Positions 351 to 8,511 of a DNA stretch of 8,708 bases are shown in pieces; within the stretch, counting starts at the first letter, position 1; each line of letters starts with the position of its first letter. The translations under genes were made by a program, and so were the position numbers. This DNA is from an uncultured Lentisphaeria bacterium. GTDB taxonomy: Bacteria > Verrucomicrobiota > Lentisphaeria > JABSQK01 > CAJWLW01. Below the pieces are notes generated by a model, which saw only the letters and a program-made list of their open reading frames with translations, had not been told where the DNA came from and searched no databases. The stretch is from assembly GCA_913042885.1 (NCBI GenBank), contig CAJWLW010000201.1, forward strand, positions 1 to 8,708, in the 5' to 3' direction.

Positions 351-380
351 AGTCAGGCAATTTACCAAATTGTGTACCCG

Positions 381-1577
381 ATGACTATCAAACGCCAACT
401 CTATGTTGTGACTTTCCTGATCGATGCTACGTGCGGAACATTTATTTTTGCTGTCGGGCGTCTACTGGCCGAGGAAAGTGCCGGCCTGCTCAGCCTGGGT
501 GTTGTTGGTGCCGTTGCCGCTGCCGGCTGGGCGATCATCGCTCTGCCGGCGGGTCAACTGAGCGACCGCTGTGGTCGCCGCTTCACCACGCTGCTCGGTG
601 CCTCGCTGCTGTTGATCAGCACTGTGGGTTCCCTTGCCTTCCAGAACTTCCGTGGGCCTTTCCTGGCCTTCTATTTCCTCTGCGGCGTCGGTGCCGGTGC
701 TTCTTATGCCGGCCTCATTCCCTGGCTTGGCGATCTTGACAGCGGCGCGTCGCGCAAGGACAAAACGCGCACACTGATGATATTCTGTTTTGCCTGGAAC
801 CTGGGGTTACTTGGTGGCAAAACTGTTGCCGGCCTCCTTTTCGTCGTCAACACGTTCGCTCCGATCGTCCTTGCCGTATTGCTCTCGGGCGCGGTCCTGA
901 TCTTGTTGTTGCGCCTGCCATCAGATGCCAGTGCGCCTGAGTCTGAGCCGGCGCTGCCGCCCATGGCAGTAGACCAGCGGCTGTCCGTTGCGTTTGGCCG
1001 CATGTGCTGGGTCGCCAATATCGCCGGCACCTGCTGCGTCGGCATTGTCATGTACCTCTTGTCCGACCTTGCCGTTGCTCTTGACGTGTCGGCACCCGGC
1101 CAGGGTTTGATCCTGGGGACCATGCGTGTTGCGGTCATGGTCACCTATCTGGCGATGCATCACTCTGATTTCTGGCATCATCGCTTGGGAGCCATCATTG
1201 GCGCCCGTATCCTTGGGCTTGCCGGCCTGGCTGTCGTCTGTGTCGCCACTGGTCCTTTCGGACTCCTGATCGGGCTGAGCAGCCTTGGCTGCATGTTGGG
1301 CTTCAACTACTTCTCCAGCCTCTACTATGCTATCTCTGGCAGCAGCGATTGCCGGCGCGGCCGTGCTTGTGCCGTTGTCGAATTCACCCTCTCGTTAGGT
1401 GTTGTCATGGGCACTCTCCTGGGCGGCTTTACCGGCGCGGCCTTAGGGGTTCGGGCCCCCTATCAGACGGGGTTCGTTGTCGTTGTTGTCATGTTTATCC
1501 TCGAGTTACTCGTTTTTCTATTCTACGTCGCCCCGGTTCACGCCGCCGTCAAAAAAACGAATTCCCGACACTTCTAA
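381..1577 (+). CDS. MFS transporter, 12 transmembrane helices, substrate unknown
   Basis: A 398-residue inner-membrane carrier if started at ATG 381; an in-frame GTG at 372 would add three residues. Neither start has a clear Shine-Dalgarno; ATG is preferred as the stronger codon. Seen: about twelve hydrophobic segments spread over the whole length. The loop between helices 2 and 3 carries the major facilitator motif A as G-Q-L-S-D-R-C-G-R-R (residues 58-67 from this ATG). A longer polar loop follows helix 6 (roughly residues 180-203, rich in S, P, E), the usual divide between the two six-helix halves. Length is normal for the superfamily. No substrate subgroup could be recognised. It converges on the dehydratase gene and is divergent from DUF547, so it is probably its own transcription unit. 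Uptake or export of a sugar acid would fit the neighbourhood but is inference only. Confidence 0.88.
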   Translation: MTIKRQLYVVTFLIDATCGTFIFAVGRLLAEESAGLLSLGVVGAVAAAGWAIIALPAGQLSDRCGRRFTTLLGASLLLISTVGSLAFQNFRGPFLAFYFLCGVGAGASYAGLIPWLGDLDSGASRKDKTRTLMIFCFAWNLGLLGGKTVAGLLFVVNTFAPIVLAVLLSGAVLILLLRLPSDASAPESEPALPPMAVDQRLSVAFGRMCWVANIAGTCCVGIVMYLLSDLAVALDVSAPGQGLILGTMRVAVMVTYLAMHHSDFWHHRLGAIIGARILGLAGLAVVCVATGPFGLLIGLSSLGCMLGFNYFSSLYYAISGSSDCRRGRACAVVEFTLSLGVVMGTLLGGFTGAALGVRAPYQTGFVVVVVMFILELLVFLFYVAPVHAAVKKTNSRHF

Positions 1578-1672: not shown

Positions 1673-4312
1673 TCAGAGAGAGCAGCCGAGACGGCCTCGG
1701 GCGAGTTGGAAGGCGGTCAGTTCGGAGGAATTGAGGTAGGGTTCGTAGTCGCCACACACACAGCTCGCACACAATTCCAGCAATGCCTGCTGATCGTGTG
1801 CCGCATCGCCTGAAAGATGGAGGTCGGCGTCAGTATCGGGCGTTGTCGAGATCAGCAGGGTGGGAATCATCGGATTCGCCTGGGACAACTCGCTGTCGGT
1901 GACGACGCAGATGACTTGAACCCCGGCAGCGCCTATACCACTTAGAAGTTCTATGTCGTCGCTGTTGGGTGCGTCCATTATGTGAAAGCCGGCACGTTCG
2001 TTTGCCCGTCCATAGGCCATCGTCGGCTGCACTGTCTCGAGACCCAGTCTCGAACAAAAAACATCGGATGCCAGGATAGAAGCATTGGCTGTCAGGACGA
2101 TTGTGCCACCACCGGCGACGATGGTGGCGGCGACAATTGCAAGTGCCTCCGCGGTCGTGTCAGTGACAGGCTCCAGGCTGTGCAACCCGACGCTGCAGCC
2201 GGCAGGGGCGGTAGCAGGCAGCCCCTGCTGCAGGCGGTCAATGACCCATTGCTCGATTTTCTGTGTTACGGCGTCGATTCCACCGTCGAGCTGAATGCTG
2301 CCCCAGCCGAATGCGGTTGGATCGACACCGCGCGTTGCGAGGAGATCTTCAAAAAAGTCGTTGTGGAATTTCTCGCAGCCATGCTCGAGCAGGACGCCGA
2401 CCTGCACGTAGGGATGCACGAGATATCCGGCGAGAGTACGCGCGGCGATGTCGTCCTCGCCGGAGGAGCACCCACAGCCCTCGGTGTGGGGCAATGCCAC
2501 GTACTGCCGGACGCCGGCATCCGCGCCGATTGCTTTGTCCTGGAGCGACGCGGCGATGAGGCCGGCGACCTGACTGGAGCACAGGCTGTTTGGCAGGATC
2601 AGGCCGAGTTTTCGCGGCACGTCGCGCCAGGGTTGCCAGTCGGCTGCGGCTGCGGTGTCGATTTCCAGTGGCTGGTCATCGAACTTTTCCCCGGCTGCGA
2701 TTGCGGCGGGGGAAGCGCCGGGCGCCTGCATCCAGTCCCGCCAGATCTGCACCTGTGAATGGTTGGCGCGCTCGCCGGCGGTACGCTTGCCGCCGGCAAC
2801 GGCTATCGATTCCTCGAGAGTACCCTGGGTCAACGTCGGCATGTCGATGCCATCGAGGTATCGGCCGGCGTTGATGTCCATTTCGTTTTCCAACAGCTCA
2901 TAGCGTCCGGTGGTGGTTACGACTTTGACAGTCGGGACGAACGGGAAATTGGTGATCGAGCCGTTGCCTGTGGTGAAGAAAATCAGGTTGCCGCCGCCGG
3001 CGACCTGTCCGGCGATACTCTCGAGGTCATTGCCGGGCGTGTGCATGAAATAATAGCCGGGCTCGGCCATCAATTCGGCGTAATCGATCGAGTAATCCAG
3101 CCGCATATCGGGTGTTTTTTTGCGGGCGGCACCAATGGATTTTACGATGATGTTGTAGAGACCGCGCAAGCGGTTTCCTCCGGATGGGTTGCCTTCGGCG
3201 CTTTGTCCGTGCCACGATGCAAGGGCGCGGAATTCTTCTATGTACTCGAGGTATTTCCTGGCGGTCTGGTGATCGCGCACATTGCTGAGCATGTAGGGTT
3301 CGGCACCGATGAGTTCAGTGGTTTCGGCGATACAGGCTTTACCGCCGTATTGCACGATCGACTTTGCCAGGGCGCCGATGAGGGGGTTGGCGGAGATGCC
3401 GGAGAAGGCATCCGACCCGCCGCACTGCAGGGAAAGGTTGAGGTTGGCGATGGATTGCGGTGTGCGCCGGGTACGATCAACGTCGTCGAGCCAGGCGAGA
3501 ATCGTTTTTCGTCCATCGGCAATTACCTGCTTAACGCTTTTGCCGCCGGCGCTCTGAAAGGCGACCGGATGACTGCACCAGTTGTAGGCCTGCGTCTCGA
3601 GAAAGTTACGCAGGCTGTCGTTGTTGACGGGTTCGTCGCCGACATCGACGGCGAGCACGGCGCCGACGTTGGGGTGGACGACAAAACCGGCCAGTGCCCG
3701 CACGAAAAAGTCTTGATTGTTCGGCATCTCTCGGCTGCCGCCTTCGGTATGCATCACCGGCACAACGCCATCGATGTTCGGGTGGCTGGAGTCGATCGAG
3801 GCGACGATACGTTTGACGACGGCATTGGTGCGCGAAGTGGTGGCGAGAACGACGATGTAATTGCGGGTACCGACACCGCGTCCGTTGGCACGGAGGTATC
3901 CGTCGAACGTCCGGTCAGTGGGCAGGCGTGGTAATTGTTTGCCGATGTTCAGCGTGGCGGTGTCGAGGTGGTATGGCTCGGCGAAATCATCGAAGTTCGC
4001 GGATTCCGGCAGCGATAAATCGAGGCGTCGTCCTTGCAACGACTCGAGCATGAGATCGTTGCACAGGTATTCGCCGGGTGTGATGTCTCGTCTGGTGGTC
4101 CCGAACGGCAGGCCCCAGGACAAGACTTTGGCCCCTGCGGCGATTGCGGAGTCCGCAAAACGGTGGCCTTCGAGGACGGTGTGGGACAGCGTGTAGCGGG
4201 CGTTGTCACGGGCGATTTCGGTACCGGCTTCGAGGCGGCGGATAGTGATCGCGACGTTGTCGGCGGGATCGGCCAGGCGGGCAACGTCATTAAATGCGAC
4301 AGCTTTTGCCAT
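1673..4312 (-). CDS. Altronate/galactarate dehydratase-family (UxaA-like) protein with a tandemly duplicated catalytic core
   Basis: This 879-residue protein is nearly twice the ~500 usual for UxaA. Family members dehydrate sugar acids (altronate to 2-keto-3-deoxygluconate, galactarate similarly). Domains read by eye: SAF about 13-92 (EGHRF 48-52, PGEYL 79-83); middle domain 1 about 135-280 (GTRNY 148-152, HPNVGAVL 213-220); C-domain 1 about 284-534 (LQCGGSDAFSG 295-305, MHTPGND 423-429); middle domain 2 about 565-700 (LPHTEGCGC 607-615, LAGYLVHP 627-634, EHGCEK 643-648); C-domain 2 about 700-875, shortened (MDAPNSDD 779-786). Middle domain 1 lacks the three family cysteines; middle domain 2 has them (C578, C613, C646). 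C-domain 2 lacks CGGSD. AGGAG at 4320-4324, seven bases before the ATG, fixes the start. It is coupled to the upstream nucleotidyltransferase (1-nt gap). Family membership is firm; substrate and activity are not. Confidence 0.92.
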   Translation of the reverse strand: MAKAVAFNDVARLADPADNVAITIRRLEAGTEIARDNARYTLSHTVLEGHRFADSAIAAGAKVLSWGLPFGTTRRDITPGEYLCNDLMLESLQGRRLDLSLPESANFDDFAEPYHLDTATLNIGKQLPRLPTDRTFDGYLRANGRGVGTRNYIVVLATTSRTNAVVKRIVASIDSSHPNIDGVVPVMHTEGGSREMPNNQDFFVRALAGFVVHPNVGAVLAVDVGDEPVNNDSLRNFLETQAYNWCSHPVAFQSAGGKSVKQVIADGRKTILAWLDDVDRTRRTPQSIANLNLSLQCGGSDAFSGISANPLIGALAKSIVQYGGKACIAETTELIGAEPYMLSNVRDHQTARKYLEYIEEFRALASWHGQSAEGNPSGGNRLRGLYNIIVKSIGAARKKTPDMRLDYSIDYAELMAEPGYYFMHTPGNDLESIAGQVAGGGNLIFFTTGNGSITNFPFVPTVKVVTTTGRYELLENEMDINAGRYLDGIDMPTLTQGTLEESIAVAGGKRTAGERANHSQVQIWRDWMQAPGASPAAIAAGEKFDDQPLEIDTAAAADWQPWRDVPRKLGLILPNSLCSSQVAGLIAASLQDKAIGADAGVRQYVALPHTEGCGCSSGEDDIAARTLAGYLVHPYVQVGVLLEHGCEKFHNDFFEDLLATRGVDPTAFGWGSIQLDGGIDAVTQKIEQWVIDRLQQGLPATAPAGCSVGLHSLEPVTDTTAEALAIVAATIVAGGGTIVLTANASILASDVFCSRLGLETVQPTMAYGRANERAGFHIMDAPNSDDIELLSGIGAAGVQVICVVTDSELSQANPMIPTLLISTTPDTDADLHLSGDAAHDQQALLELCASCVCGDYEPYLNSSELTAFQLARGRLGCSL

Positions 4313-4313
4313 G

Positions 4314-5228
4314 TCAATTCTCCTCCCAGAGGTTCGCGGGGTAGGTGCCTTCGTTGATGAAGCTTTGGACAGCGGCCATGACCAGCGGCTTATCCAGCTG
4401 GTAGGTGATGCCGTGCCAGCGTTCCTGTGAGTGCAGAACAGTCAATTGGGCGCGGCTCTCGCCGATGAGTTCGTCGATGATCACGGGCAGGAGAAATTCA
4501 GACTTCGGGTCTTTGCCGTGTTTCTCCAGGAACGGCACGAATCGTTCCTGCAACTGTTCGAATACGCGCGGCATGAAGCCCCAGAAATTCATCGATGTCG
4601 GTTCGTTACCGGTGAACTCGGTGGTTGTGCGGTTTTCCTCCTGCATGCGGGCGCCGCCGTTGCAGCGCTCGATTTTGAGGCACTCGCGGACGGTTTGCAG
4701 ATATCCGTCCTCGCTGACCTTGCAGATACCGCGCGCGACGGTGCCGTGGTCGGAGAGCGTGTTTCCGAGACGGAAGGCCACCAAAGCGTATGTCGGCGCG
4801 TTGAGGTCTTGGAGCGTTGCGAGGTGCTCTGCGAGAACGGCATACGTGGTGCGTCCGTAAAAATCATCAGCGTTGATCACGGCAAAGGGTTCGTTGACGT
4901 GGCCGCGACAGGCCAGCACGGCGTGGCCGGTGCCCCAGGGCTTGGTCCTGTCTGCTGGAGCGACAAAAGGTTCGGGCAGTGCGTTGATCTCCTGAATGAC
5001 ATAGTGTGTATCGATCTGCGACTCGAAACGCTGGCCGATATGTGTTCGAAAGTCTGCTTCGATGGTGCTATTGACGATCATCACCAGCTTGCCGAAGCCG
5101 GCCCGCAAGGCGTCATAGATCGAGTAGTCGATGATGATCTCGCCGGCCGGTCCGATCGGATCGATCTGCTTGCAGCCGCCGTAGCGGCTGCCAATCCCGG
5201 CGGCCATGATGACCAGTGTTGGTTTCAT
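4314..5228 (-). CDS. Sugar-phosphate nucleotidyltransferase (MdsB-like NDP-sugar pyrophosphorylase)
   Basis: A 304-residue cytoplasmic enzyme expected to join a sugar-1-phosphate to an NTP, giving an NDP-sugar and pyrophosphate. Seen: the nucleotide-binding loop MAAGIGSRYGGCKQ (8-21) with R15 and K20; KPWGTGHAVL (96-105); the metal-binding INADDFYG (118-125), where one Asp should hold Mg2+; SEFLLPVIIDELI (243-255); and a C-terminal HGITYQLDKP (272-281). From memory, this family often sits beside NahK/MdsC-like kinases, and such a kinase lies on the same strand at 7251-8339. ATG 5228 is chosen because family homology starts with the strand leading into MAAG. The frame is open upstream to a GTG at 5306, but that extension shows no family features. 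The ribosome site is weak. Its last codons (W-E-E-N-stop) contain the ribosome-binding site of the dehydratase gene. Base and sugar specificity cannot be read. Confidence 0.9.
   Translation of the reverse strand: MKPTLVIMAAGIGSRYGGCKQIDPIGPAGEIIIDYSIYDALRAGFGKLVMIVNSTIEADFRTHIGQRFESQIDTHYVIQEINALPEPFVAPADRTKPWGTGHAVLACRGHVNEPFAVINADDFYGRTTYAVLAEHLATLQDLNAPTYALVAFRLGNTLSDHGTVARGICKVSEDGYLQTVRECLKIERCNGGARMQEENRTTTEFTGNEPTSMNFWGFMPRVFEQLQERFVPFLEKHGKDPKSEFLLPVIIDELIGESRAQLTVLHSQERWHGITYQLDKPLVMAAVQSFINEGTYPANLWEEN
4320..4327 (-). promoter_or_regulatory. Strong Shine-Dalgarno of the dehydratase gene, inside the preceding gene
   Basis: On the minus strand GGGAGGAG lies 7 bases before the ATG at 4312. 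It is made from the last sense codons of the nucleotidyltransferase gene (TGG GAG GAG AAT TGA). Together with the single base between stop and start, this indicates translational coupling and one shared transcript. Confidence 0.75.
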
Positions 5229-5381
5229 TGTTTCTGGACAAACGTAGAATGATAAGATGCCAGGTGGGGAGACGAACGGCTGCACGTGAAGGTAGTCGCG
5301 GTCCACTGATTTTTAAAGTTACGGATTCATGTGCCGCCGTTCTGGCGCTATTGTATGCCGCGAATCTTTGGAGTCCAAGAC
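5229..5381. promoter_or_regulatory. Divergent intergenic region expected to carry promoters for both sugar-activation units
   Basis: These 153 bases separate the minus-strand nucleotidyltransferase-dehydratase unit from the plus-strand GHMP kinase-GalU unit, so both must be transcribed from here or be read through from neighbours. On the minus strand TATCAT (5249-5254) is one base from the -10 consensus, but no good -35 lies 16-18 bases behind it. On the plus strand TATTGT (5349-5354) is a weak -10 candidate. The ribosome site GGAG at 5370-5373 ends 8 bases before the ATG at 5382. No convincing operator repeat was seen. Confidence 0.35.
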
Positions 5382-6389
5382 ATGCTCATCAAAACCAGAT
5401 CATACGCGCGAGCGGGGTTGCTTGGCAATCCGTCCGACGGTTTTTTCGGCAAGACCATTTCCTTCACGATGTCGAACTTCGTGGCGGACCTGGAGTTGTG
5501 GGAGAGCCCGGAGATTCATTTCGTCACGGGCGCTGTGGAAGACCTCCGATTCGATAGCCTGGACAATCTTCTGACCGAGATCGGGCTGTACGGGTACTAC
5601 GGGGGCATTCGTCTGCTGAAAGCGACGACCAAGGTGTTTGTTACCTGGTGCCGTGAGAACGGTGTAGAACTGCCAAACCGGAATTTCACTGTTCGTTACC
5701 TGTCGACAGTCCCGCGCCTGGTGGGCATGGGCGGGTCCAGCGCCCTGTGTACGGCGATGTTCCGGGCGTTGATGAAGTTCTACGAGATCGATGTGCCGAT
5801 GCAGATCATTCCGACTCTGTGTCTGCGGGCAGAGACCGAGGAGTTGACGATCCAGGCGGGGTTGCAGGATCGAGTCATCCAGGTGTACAACGGCGTGATG
5901 TTCATGGATTTCGACGAGCAGCTCATCAAGTCACGTCAGTACGGCGACTACAAGCGCATCGACAAAGCCAGCATGCCGAACGTCTATGTGGCCTACGACC
6001 GGGTACAGGCGGAAGTCTCGGGCAAGTACCACGGTGATCTGCACAGCCGCTTCGACCGTGGCGACAGCGCCGTGATCGATGCGATGCACGAATTTGCGGA
6101 TATCGCACAGCGCGGCTACGAATGTCTGACGCAAGGGCGGCCGCACGAATTGTCAGCGCTGGTGGATCAGAACTTCGACGTCCGCGAACGCATCTCCGGC
6201 AACGGCATCTCCCCGGCCAACCGCAACATGGTCTCGGTCGCACGTGATGCCGGTGCATCTGCGAAGTTCGCAGGCAGCGGCGGGACGATCGTCGGAACGT
6301 ACAAAGACGACACGGCACTGCAAGTGTTACGCGAGCGTCTTGAGGCGATCAACTGCGAAGTCGTCGTACCGGAAATCCCGGACGTATGA
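5382..6389 (+). CDS. GHMP kinase, glucuronokinase-like
   Basis: This 335-residue enzyme would phosphorylate a sugar at C1 with ATP. All three GHMP motifs are visible: RAGLLGNPSD (10-19); the ATP loop PRLVGMGGSSAL (111-122); and AKFAGSGGTIVG (294-305). The catalytic Asp is expected at D163 in AGLQDRVIQVYNG (159-171). As recalled, plant glucuronokinase has almost the same AGLQDRVAQVYGG, GLLGNPSD and NFDIRRR segments (here NFDVRER, 264-270), so glucuronate (giving glucuronate-1-phosphate) is the leading substrate. Other uronic acids or heptoses remain possible. ATG 5382 is chosen because GGAG lies 8 bases upstream and homology begins at once; an in-frame GTG at 5331 would add 17 unremarkable residues. 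Its stop overlaps the galU-like start in ATGA, so the two products are likely made together. The kinase family is certain; the substrate is inferred. Confidence 0.9.
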   Translation: MLIKTRSYARAGLLGNPSDGFFGKTISFTMSNFVADLELWESPEIHFVTGAVEDLRFDSLDNLLTEIGLYGYYGGIRLLKATTKVFVTWCRENGVELPNRNFTVRYLSTVPRLVGMGGSSALCTAMFRALMKFYEIDVPMQIIPTLCLRAETEELTIQAGLQDRVIQVYNGVMFMDFDEQLIKSRQYGDYKRIDKASMPNVYVAYDRVQAEVSGKYHGDLHSRFDRGDSAVIDAMHEFADIAQRGYECLTQGRPHELSALVDQNFDVRERISGNGISPANRNMVSVARDAGASAKFAGSGGTIVGTYKDDTALQVLRERLEAINCEVVVPEIPDV

Positions 6390-7201
6390 CAGCGGTGCGT
6401 ACAGCCATTCTGCCCGCCGCCGGCCTGGCGACGCGCTTTCTGCCGGTCTCCAAGGCTGTGCCCAAGGAGCTTTTGCCGTTGGGCAACAAGCCGGTGATCC
6501 ACTGGATTGTCGACGAAGCGGTGGCGGCGGGCGTTGAAGAGATTGTCCTGGTGATCAGTCCGGACAAGACGGCTATTCGCGAATACTTCTCGCCGGCCCC
6601 GGCGTTGGACGATATTCTGCAGGCGCGCGGCAAGTCCGAACTATTGGACGAACTGAACCGCCTGCTCGATCGTGTCGCCTTTACCTTTGTCATCCAACAT
6701 GAGCCGAGTGGCCTGGGGCATGCCGTGCTTTGCGGCCGCGACGCGGTCGGAGATGAACCCGCGCTGGTATTGCTCGGCGACGCACTGATCACCGCAGAGG
6801 TGCCGGTTGCGCGTCAGCTTGTCGCCGTATTCGAACAGGTCGGCAACAGTGTGCTCGGCCTGGAAGAAGTCCCGGACGAAAAGGTGATGTCGCGCGGAAT
6901 TGTCGCTGCCGAAACAACGCCGGACGGCTTCCTTCGTGTCAGCGCTGTCGTCGAGAAACCGCCAGTTGCGGAGGCTCCAGGCAATCTTGCCATCTCCGGC
7001 CGTTACCTGTTGACGCCGGCGGTGTACGGCTATTTGGAATCTGCGGCGCCACGGGCGGACGGGGAGATTTGTCTGACGTCGGGGATTGCCGGTCTGATTG
7101 CGGACGAGGCGGTGTATGGCTGTATCTTCGACGGCGTGCGTCACGACACCGGCACACCGGCCGGGTATTTGAAGCTTCTGAATACGCTGGTGACGCAGTA
7201 G
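6386..7201 (+). CDS. galU: UTP-glucose-1-phosphate uridylyltransferase family (GalU-like)
   Basis: A 271-residue cytoplasmic enzyme that would make a UDP-sugar from UTP and a sugar-1-phosphate. Seen: the GalU signature AAGLATRFLP (11-20) followed by SKAVPKELLP (22-31); SGLGHAVLCG (108-117); the metal-binding LLGDALI (129-135) with D132; VVEKP (188-192); SGRYLLTP (204-211); and a C-terminal G-V-R-H-D-T-G-T-P-A-G-Y-L. It is a little shorter than the usual ~290-300 residues. The nucleotide loop has Ala where GalU commonly has Gly (AAGLGTR). The start overlaps the preceding kinase stop by ATGA and has no good ribosome site of its own, so translation probably depends on the kinase. Context suggests its substrate is that kinase's product, possibly glucuronate-1-phosphate rather than glucose-1-phosphate. 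The family is secure; sugar specificity is inference. The 49-base gap after it, before the convergent kinase gene, shows no clear terminator. Confidence 0.9.
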   Translation: MTAVRTAILPAAGLATRFLPVSKAVPKELLPLGNKPVIHWIVDEAVAAGVEEIVLVISPDKTAIREYFSPAPALDDILQARGKSELLDELNRLLDRVAFTFVIQHEPSGLGHAVLCGRDAVGDEPALVLLGDALITAEVPVARQLVAVFEQVGNSVLGLEEVPDEKVMSRGIVAAETTPDGFLRVSAVVEKPPVAEAPGNLAISGRYLLTPAVYGYLESAAPRADGEICLTSGIAGLIADEAVYGCIFDGVRHDTGTPAGYLKLLNTLVTQ

Positions 7202-7250
7202 TGACGAAATGAACGGCGGCAGTGGCCTGTTCTGCTTGCCTGCAGTTGTG

Positions 7251-8339
7251 TCAGACATACCTGTCGATGATCGCGCCGAGTTGATCGACTTTTTCTTCGA
7301 TATCCTTGACCAGGCAAAATTGGGTGTGGGTGCGGTCGAGATTTTCCTCGGCGTAATGAATCTTGTAATAGGTGTCGCCGTTGAGGTAATCGGCCAGGAA
7401 GCGGATGCCGTTCTCGAAAGTCATGAGAAAACCGGCATGCGGCAGCAGTTCAATCTCCCGCGGCTGCAGAAATGACTTTGCTTCGCCGACGTAGCCGCGC
7501 ACCAGCGCTTCGTAGCGTTCGATGTCGAGTGACACTTTGCCAAGGTCCTTTTCATTCTCGGCGAAGTCGCCGGTCGAGGTCCGGACCAGTTCACCGAAGT
7601 CATACAGAAGCGAACCTGCCATGACCGTGTCCAGGTCGATGACGCAAACACCGGCACCGGTTTTAACGTCGAGCAGGACATTGTTTATCTTTGTGTCGTT
7701 GTGCGTGACGCGCACGGGAATCTCGCCGGATTCCAGGCCGTCGGTAACGATCCGGACCGTGTCTTTGCGGGCCAGCGCGAAATTGATTTCGTCGCGGCAT
7801 TGGGCGACTCGCCCGGCGGTGTCTGCGGCGATAGCGGATTCGAGTGCCGCCATGCGTGAGGGCGTATGATGGAAGCCGGGAATCGTTTCGTTGAGATCGT
7901 TGGCGTCGAGGTCGACGAGCATCCCTTGAAACCTGGCAAATGCGAAGCCGGCCGCCTCCGCCTGGCCCGGGTTTTGGACGAAGTCGTGATACTCAGTGTT
8001 CTCGACGAAAACGTAGGTGCGCCAGTAGTAGCCGTCGGCGTCGCGGCACAACGTGTCGCCGTTGCGTGCCTTGACGATTTCCAGCACCTGCTGCGGACCC
8101 GAGTCGAGTTTGCTGCCGAGATGTTCGCAGACCCGGACAATGTTGCGCATCATGCCGACGGGATCCTTGAAGACGTGATGGTTCAGCCGCTGGTGGATGA
8201 ACCGCCTGGAACCGTCGCCATCCCTGTAGGTCGCGGCGTAGGTGTCGTGGATATGACCGTTGCCGTAGGGTGTGCAGTCGACGAGGTCGCCCTCGATCGC
8301 GAAACCGGCCAGTACGTTTTTGATATCATCCGGAACCAT
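7251..8339 (-). CDS. Phosphotransferase-family anomeric sugar kinase, NahK/MdsC-like
   Basis: A 362-residue kinase of the aminoglycoside-phosphotransferase fold, very close in length to N-acetylhexosamine 1-kinase (NahK, about 359). Seen: the ATP-binding turn YGNGHIHDTY (25-34), the catalytic loop THNDTKINN (212-220) with D215 as expected base, the metal-binding VIDLD (233-237), and a C-terminal NGIRFLADYLNGD (310-322) typical of NahK relatives. NahK makes GlcNAc-1-P or GalNAc-1-P; relatives are often misannotated as 'mucin desulfatase MdsC'. The substrate here is unknown. ATG 8339 is chosen because homology starts just after it; a TTG at 8420 would add 27 residues encoded by an intergenic-looking A-tract and repeat. 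The ribosome site is weak (AGTGG). It is convergent with the GalU-like gene and on the same strand as the MdsB-like transferase 2 kb downstream, its probable functional partner. Confidence 0.88.
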   Translation of the reverse strand: MVPDDIKNVLAGFAIEGDLVDCTPYGNGHIHDTYAATYRDGDGSRRFIHQRLNHHVFKDPVGMMRNIVRVCEHLGSKLDSGPQQVLEIVKARNGDTLCRDADGYYWRTYVFVENTEYHDFVQNPGQAEAAGFAFARFQGMLVDLDANDLNETIPGFHHTPSRMAALESAIAADTAGRVAQCRDEINFALARKDTVRIVTDGLESGEIPVRVTHNDTKINNVLLDVKTGAGVCVIDLDTVMAGSLLYDFGELVRTSTGDFAENEKDLGKVSLDIERYEALVRGYVGEAKSFLQPREIELLPHAGFLMTFENGIRFLADYLNGDTYYKIHYAEENLDRTHTQFCLVKDIEEKVDQLGAIIDRYV

Positions 8340-8511
8340 GCCACTGAACGTAAGTGCGAACAGTTCACGAGTCAAGATTGCCGTGCCCGGAGATGCCGTC
8401 AAAAAAAAAGATGCTGTCAAGTGTAACCTTAGCGTCCTTGCCGACGACTAAGGAGGGTGAGCGCTCGATTCCCGCAATCACACATTCAACTCAAACTCGA
8501 AGAGGTTTCCG
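8340..8511. promoter_or_regulatory. Divergent intergenic region between the NahK-like kinase and the exported protein
   Basis: These 172 bases should hold promoters for both flanking genes. A perfect -35 hexamer TTGACA reads on the minus strand at 8420-8415, but the hexamer 17 bases on (GGCATC) is a poor -10. The region includes an A-tract with flanking direct repeats (8392-8420) and an orphan strong ribosome-site sequence AAGGAGGG (8450-8457). GAAGAGG at 8499-8505 is the likely ribosome site for the ATG at 8512. Confidence 0.4.
8392..8420. repeat. Tandem 11-bp direct repeat around an A-tract, candidate operator
   Basis: GATGCCGTCAA (8392-8402) and GATGCTGTCAA (8410-8420) differ at one position and are separated by seven A residues, for an 18-base repeat period. 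They lie 53-81 bases upstream of the NahK-like start, in the divergent gap, and overlap the TTGACA hexamer on the minus strand. That position suits a paired binding site for a regulator. No regulator gene is in the window. Confidence 0.55.

Follow-up and report, generated by a model that had tools for sequence, protein, structure and literature searches.

A tandem-duplicated UxaA/GarD-family protein whose complementary cysteine motifs point to a probable composite active site

What kind of metal site the dehydratases of the UxaA/GarD superfamily contain is unsettled. In the excerpted text of PMC6336799, Cys134, Cys173, Cys208 and Cys276 of D-arabinonate dehydratase are given as the sole conserved cysteines of the superfamily, sulfolactate sulfo-lyase excepted, and the authors propose a rubredoxin-like iron site and call for more analysis. 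Four cysteines (C132, C166, C199 and C264 in UxaA numbering), which we equate with these because the spacing agrees (spacing only, with no alignment to that protein), are present in 24/24 aligned single-core relatives: E. coli UxaA and GarD, proteins from Paracoccus (139/175/210/278), Rhizobium (136/171/206/274), Priestia and Escherichia albertii, and 18 proteins from relatives in the phylum, taken from 23 single-core or similar loci (L011–L033) after exclusion of L012, L021, L023, L026 and L030, which have a stop inside the match. Here we describe a gene from an uncultured Lentisphaeria bacterium, located in a window of 8,708 nucleotides (the whole stretch analyzed; contig CAJWLW010000201.1 of assembly GCA_913042885.1), that encodes a probable sugar-acid dehydratase, judging by its sequence, in which these four cysteines are divided between two tandem copies of the family core.

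The protein comprises a SAF domain followed by two middle domains and two C-domains in the order SAF-M1-C1-M2-C2 (Table 1), and Pfam recovers SAF once and GD_AH_second and GD_AH_C in two stretches each. Residues 1–535 alone (copy 1) match SAF, GD_AH_second and GD_AH_C, the domain set of the UxaA/GarD superfamily (COG2721), all over the Pfam cut-offs; the score against the galactarate dehydratase equivalog (NCBIfam TIGR03248) is 160 bits, far below its curated cut-off of 730.85. Residues 536–879 alone (copy 2) pass the cut-off of 27.3 for GD_AH_second (48.0 bits, E-value 1.8e-12) and reach 22.4 bits (8.5e-5) for GD_AH_C, under the cut-off of 26.8, so that residues 565–870 do match both domains, as the original prediction requires, with the C-domain match under the threshold. 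Profile self-comparison aligned copy 1 with copy 2 at 99.7% probability (E-value 1.2e-25) and also paired M1 with M2 (98.7%) and C1 with C2 (97.6%), with mismatched controls at 0.1% (M1-C2) and 0.4% (C1-M2). The equivalent of residues 345–399 (55 residues) is missing from copy 2. The core is duplicated in tandem, and both this duplication and the loss of about 55 C-domain residues agree with the original prediction, which had been made from the DNA alone.

That prediction also held that the two copies have lost complementary motifs, and every motif position it quoted proved exact: TSRTN (159–163), HTEGGS (188–193), VGDEP (224–228) and LQCGGSDAFSG (295–305) in copy 1, and LCSS (577–580), HTEGCG (609–614), HGCEK (644–648) and SVGLHSLEP (707–715) in copy 2. 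M1 has GTRN (148–151) and HTEG (188–191) and lacks the three middle-domain cysteines, which are found as C578, C613 and C646 in M2 only; C1 retains most family-invariant residues together with QCGGSD, whose cysteine C297 occurs in C1 only. What had been overlooked is that this CGGSD cysteine is itself the fourth conserved cysteine. Neither copy holds all four cysteines within one core, and the set is complete only across both.

This 3+1 split is conserved among fused homologues. We examined 223 listed homologues from two overlapping searches (the best 120 of 4049 and the best 120 of 3872 matches, totals that may contain single-core proteins, as matches down to 0.55 times the query length were accepted), which together with the window protein make 224 aligned rows. 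Exactly one CGGSD is present per protein in 223/223 homologues, the complete copy-2 triad is found in 222/223, and none of the 224 rows has a cysteine at the copy-1 positions matching the triad (161, 192 and 226); because of these tallies, the complementary pattern is not due to chance. QCGGSD is invariant across the 224 rows, and many further C1 residues are almost so. The one exception to the triad, P0151, is a truncated protein of 552 residues, and the tally of 224/224 for the C646 column counts this doubtful row; P0056 has a cysteine at 224, two residues off the third copy-1 position. None of the 223 listed homologues keeps both motif sets within each half. Nine fused rows from genomes and plasmids concur, eight being full length with both sets and one cut by a contig end to M2-C2 only; among them L004 is a near relative of the window's gene and L035 is P0121.

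The split also exists in unfused form, a point likewise missed by the original prediction. The route to it was the Pantoea soli member, which is 39.6% identical to the window protein and, used as query, led to Haladaptatus plasmids with three adjacent genes. The third of these as query returned 16 haloarchaeal records with at least 46% identity and two matching places each. In all eight loci opened from these 16 records the gene order is A (a middle domain and C-domain core), SAF, B (a second such core); in all eight, A has the CGGSD cysteine and no triad, and B has the triad and no CGGSD. A larger B-type set (the query and the best 120 of 855 matches) contains the triad in 121/121 proteins and CGGSD in 0/121. 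By their sequences, these A-SAF-B operons (L041:9980–12554 and L042–L048) look like obligate heteromers with complementary sites. They were encountered here in plasmid records, and we found no functional study of them in the literature searched. The label "UxaA family hydrolase" carried by each of A, SAF and B masks the arrangement. In Halostagnicola larsenii the B gene (L046:4882–6089) is annotated from 5067, in-frame homology begins at about 5001 and a small "hypothetical" open reading frame occupies 4882–5070, so the annotated start is probably wrong. The surroundings vary, with a FAH- or DHDPS-family gene in 5/8 loci and elsewhere ABC or TRAP transporters, LUD proteins or a glycoside hydrolase.

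Outside the cysteines, losses run parallel in the fused and haloarchaeal systems. Canonical invariants were defined as residues present in at least 23 of the 24 single-core rows and counted as kept when present in at least 90% of rows. C-domain invariants kept, of 50, number 46 in haloarchaeal A and 37 in copy 1, against 14 in haloarchaeal B and 6 in copy 2; for the 16 middle-domain invariants the values are 12 (A), 14 (B), 7 (copy 1) and 9 (copy 2). The middle-domain losses of A are the three cysteines and Q225 only. Q225, which corresponds to Q674 in M2, is retained by both B and M2, and copy 1 has lost it in part.

The best-supported reading, and the one first proposed, is that the protein is a fused pseudo-dimer with one active site instead of two, a composite of M2 and C1, to which we assign a probability of roughly 70%. 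Copy 1 (SAF-M1-C1) would contribute the C-domain that binds the substrate, along with C297 of QCGGSD as one of the metal ligands, and copy 2, its own C-domain decayed, would supply the remaining ligands C578, C613 and C646 as well as Q674. Where C1 and M2 touch, the four cysteines would come together to bind an iron centre responsible for dehydrating a sugar acid, with a 2-keto-3-deoxy acid as the product, and the matching M1-C2 site would be dead. The strongest evidence is that the 3+1 split recurs in a bacterial fusion and in separate archaeal proteins. In a confident full-length structure model, predicted from the window protein with 144 of the 223 homologues, copy 1 has the shape of a GarD protomer, the fold of the superfamily, with GarD-like packing; this model and one of a C1-M2 fragment are consistent with, though no proof of, adjacency of the two motif sets. 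Since the same parts are shared out between two haloarchaeal proteins, ordinary single-core UxaA/GarD enzymes may build the same site between two subunits. The wider proposition, that an inter-subunit site (three cysteines from the middle domain of one protomer, the fourth from the C-domain of the other) is general in the family and that the bacterial fusion and the archaeal heteromer are two natural conversions, each following duplication, of a two-site homodimer into a one-site enzyme, seems to us about evenly balanced.

Several observations weigh against a composite site, and some of them favour one of its two main rivals, in which copy 1 alone is the enzyme, free of the triad as in SuyB-type proteins, and copy 2 is regulatory or structural, its triad binding an iron or Fe-S cluster of its own. 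A single probable SuyB (L053:2986–4152), tallied separately from the 24 single-core rows and identified by its neighbours, hisD and a putative sulfate exporter, has a cysteine at the fourth site (within NCATSD) but lacks all three triad cysteines, which indicates that the fourth cysteine can serve without the triad. The metal (calcium) site of GarD reportedly lies in the C-terminal domain alone. Copy 1 retains 37/50 C-domain invariants as well as its GarD protomer shape, and neither M1 (7/16) nor M2 (9/16) is a full middle domain by its invariants. The C1-M2 fragment model has a predicted template modelling score of 0.84 from a single run with no control fragments, and its predicted local distance difference test values are 64–67 around HTEGC and 76 around CGGSD. 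Covariation analysis, at an effective number of sequences of 102, was uninformative. A cysteine that aligns with the fourth position, though outside CGGSD, is seen in one of the eight B rows from opened loci and in 4/121 of the larger B-type set. Finally, the iron-ligand role of the four cysteines is itself the authors' proposal from conservation and electron paramagnetic resonance in the excerpts of PMC6336799. We nevertheless consider an enzyme of copy 1 alone unlikely: the triad is lost in one half and kept in the other (222/223 fused proteins and 8/8 opened archaeal operons), Q225 tracks the triad in A, B and M2, and a purely structural cluster would need no partner bearing only CGGSD in both systems.

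The gene's surroundings bear on the other main rival, in which the dehydratase chemistry has been abandoned and a different reaction, or a sensing role, within a nucleotide-sugar cassette has fallen to the decayed copy 2 and the altered M1. The neighbours in the window are a nucleotidyltransferase, a GHMP sugar kinase, a GalU-like enzyme, an N-acetylhexosamine-kinase-like protein and an MFS transporter; these are sugar kinases and nucleotidyltransferases rather than classic hexuronate genes, and this, with the missed GarD equivalog cut-off, could be taken to indicate a changed function. Against it stand the invariance of QCGGSD in 224 rows, the near invariance of many other C1 residues, and the Pantoea soli gene, which lies between a GntR regulator and a FAH-family hydrolase and 2-keto-3-deoxygluconate permease. 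We regard a changed function as very improbable, and the "new function" that the original prediction had kept as an alternative is not needed. In Rubrobacter the double-core gene has a GntR regulator beside it, and genes for PdxA and a four-carbon acid sugar kinase are several kilobases distant; five relatives in the phylum have mixed neighbours (a cyclase; an aldehyde dehydrogenase and a TIM-barrel protein; a LacI regulator; a PhyH protein; and one without a Pfam match). Taken together, these neighbourhoods point to the use of a sugar or sugar acid but do not single out one substrate.

How the split arose was addressed with a tree of 89 cores, which included 24 of the 224 fused proteins and eight B rows (not the 121-protein B set). 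Copy 1 (100/97, bootstrap first), copy 2 (100/100), haloarchaeal A (100/100) and haloarchaeal B (100/100) each make up one side of a branch. Copies 1 and 2 group together (82/96), and A and B are placed among single-core enzymes whose SAF domain is encoded by a gene of its own (82/99), although both bootstraps of 82 are below the usual 95. A single clade of A and copy 1 is rejected by the approximately unbiased (AU) test (p 0.030), and still is without the four cysteine columns and Q225 (p 0.015); these groupings were named only after inspection of the tree. The same test does not reject a single clade of B and copy 2 (p 0.48), and resolution deep in the tree suffers from a long branch, of length 2.18 to copy 2. 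From these results, the triad loss probably happened twice, and two fully independent splits are favoured. The alternative is that one ancient duplication produced an A/B heterodimer whose halves stayed apart in haloarchaea and became fused in bacteria, so that the split was inherited and not repeated; the unrejected B and copy 2 clade and the long branch leave room for it, the rejection of A with copy 1 and the separate placements of the two systems speak against it, and we hold it to be possible but doubtful. This alternative bears on the evolutionary history alone, and the composite-site reading is unaffected by it.

Table 1. Positions of the double-core gene, its domains and key codons, and the adjacent gene in the window
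Feature	Positions	Strand	Details
Double-core UxaA/GarD-family gene, 879 aa, SAF-M1-C1-M2-C2	1673..4312	minus	ATG at 4312
SAF domain, residues 18–83	4064..4261	minus	Pfam PF08666, 26.2 bits (cut-off 21)
Middle domain 1 (M1), residues 138–272	3497..3901	minus	Pfam PF04295, E 5.3e-26
C-domain 1 (C1), residues 289–527	2732..3448	minus	Pfam PF20629, E 3.7e-74
Codon of C297, fourth conserved cysteine	3422..3424	minus	224/224 aligned rows
Middle domain 2 (M2), residues 571–686, bears the cysteine triad	2255..2602	minus	PF04295, E 1.8e-12
Codon of C578, first triad cysteine	2579..2581	minus	223/224 rows; exception P0151
Codon of C613, second triad cysteine	2474..2476	minus	223/224 rows; exception P0151
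Codon of C646, third triad cysteine	2375..2377	minus	EHGC[EW] in 222/223 homologues; exception P0151
Codon of Q674 (M2), retained along with the triad	2291..2293	minus	
C-domain 2 (C2), residues 701–879, 55 residues shorter, without CGGSD	1676..2212	minus	PF20629
Nucleotidyltransferase gene	4314..5306	minus	One base upstream of the dehydratase gene; PDB 3pnn match, E 1.7e-91

The double-core layout is widespread, a further point absent from the original prediction. Among 387 relatives in the phylum, 110 had a match, of which seven are double-core (six full, one cut by a contig end) and the rest single-core or less; in the nearest genome examined (84% complete) the sole PF20629 gene found is the double-core one. 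Named matches listed come from Lentisphaeria, Chloroflexota, Verrucomicrobiota, Paenibacillus, Bacillus, Arthrobacter, Brevibacterium, Kocuria, Paracoccus, Yersinia and Pantoea. The nucleotidyltransferase gene, which also has a weak Pfam NTP_transferase match under the cut-off, is the likely operon partner of the dehydratase gene. Positions 4314–8420 hold a sugar-activating cassette (the 3pnn-like nucleotidyltransferase, the GHMP sugar kinase, the GalU-like uridylyltransferase and the N-acetylhexosamine-kinase-like protein), likely a nucleotide-sugar salvage path. A near relative (L001) has a URO-D-domain gene between the dehydratase and MFS genes that is absent from the window (372–1577 versus L001:6945–8222), so the neighbourhood differs between close relatives.

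Where sources name double-core proteins, the usual labels are "UxaA family hydrolase" and altronate dehydratase/hydrolase, so that transferring UxaA function to them may mislead. For the question that PMC6336799, in its excerpted text, leaves to further analysis, the invariant 3+1 split, seen both in fused proteins and in archaeal subunits on separate chains, suggests an answer that can be tested: the site is shared between subunits. It would also provide simple tools to prove this, a one-site enzyme and separable half-sites.

Compared with known systems, the window protein is a new variant inside a known superfamily, with the four-cysteine feature present only across its two halves. It shares two cores and the same complementary cysteine split with the haloarchaeal A-SAF-B system, which differs in having three separate genes, another place on the tree and a B C-domain less decayed than that of copy 2 (14 versus 6 of 50 invariants). 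SuyAB sulfolactate sulfo-lyase belongs to the same superfamily and is heteromeric according to the excerpts of PMC6336799; the one probable SuyAB locus pairs a SAF gene with a single core gene, whose product has the C-domain cysteine and lacks the triad, so that this core, also filed in the UxaA/GarD superfamily, likewise lacks four cysteines in one core, whereas the window protein carries SAF and two cores on one chain. E. coli GarD (PDB 6u7l) and UxaA each carry the full set of four cysteines in a single core, in contrast to two cores with one and three cysteines and a second, decayed C-domain in the window protein. The D-arabinonate and D-idonate dehydratases described in the excerpts of PMC6336799 are of the same superfamily, have four conserved cysteines as proposed iron ligands and yield a 2-keto-3-deoxy acid, in a pathway that includes FAH-family enzymes, and a FAH hydrolase likewise adjoins the Pantoea homologue; their substrate is known, and the related proteins aligned here have a single core where the window protein has two.
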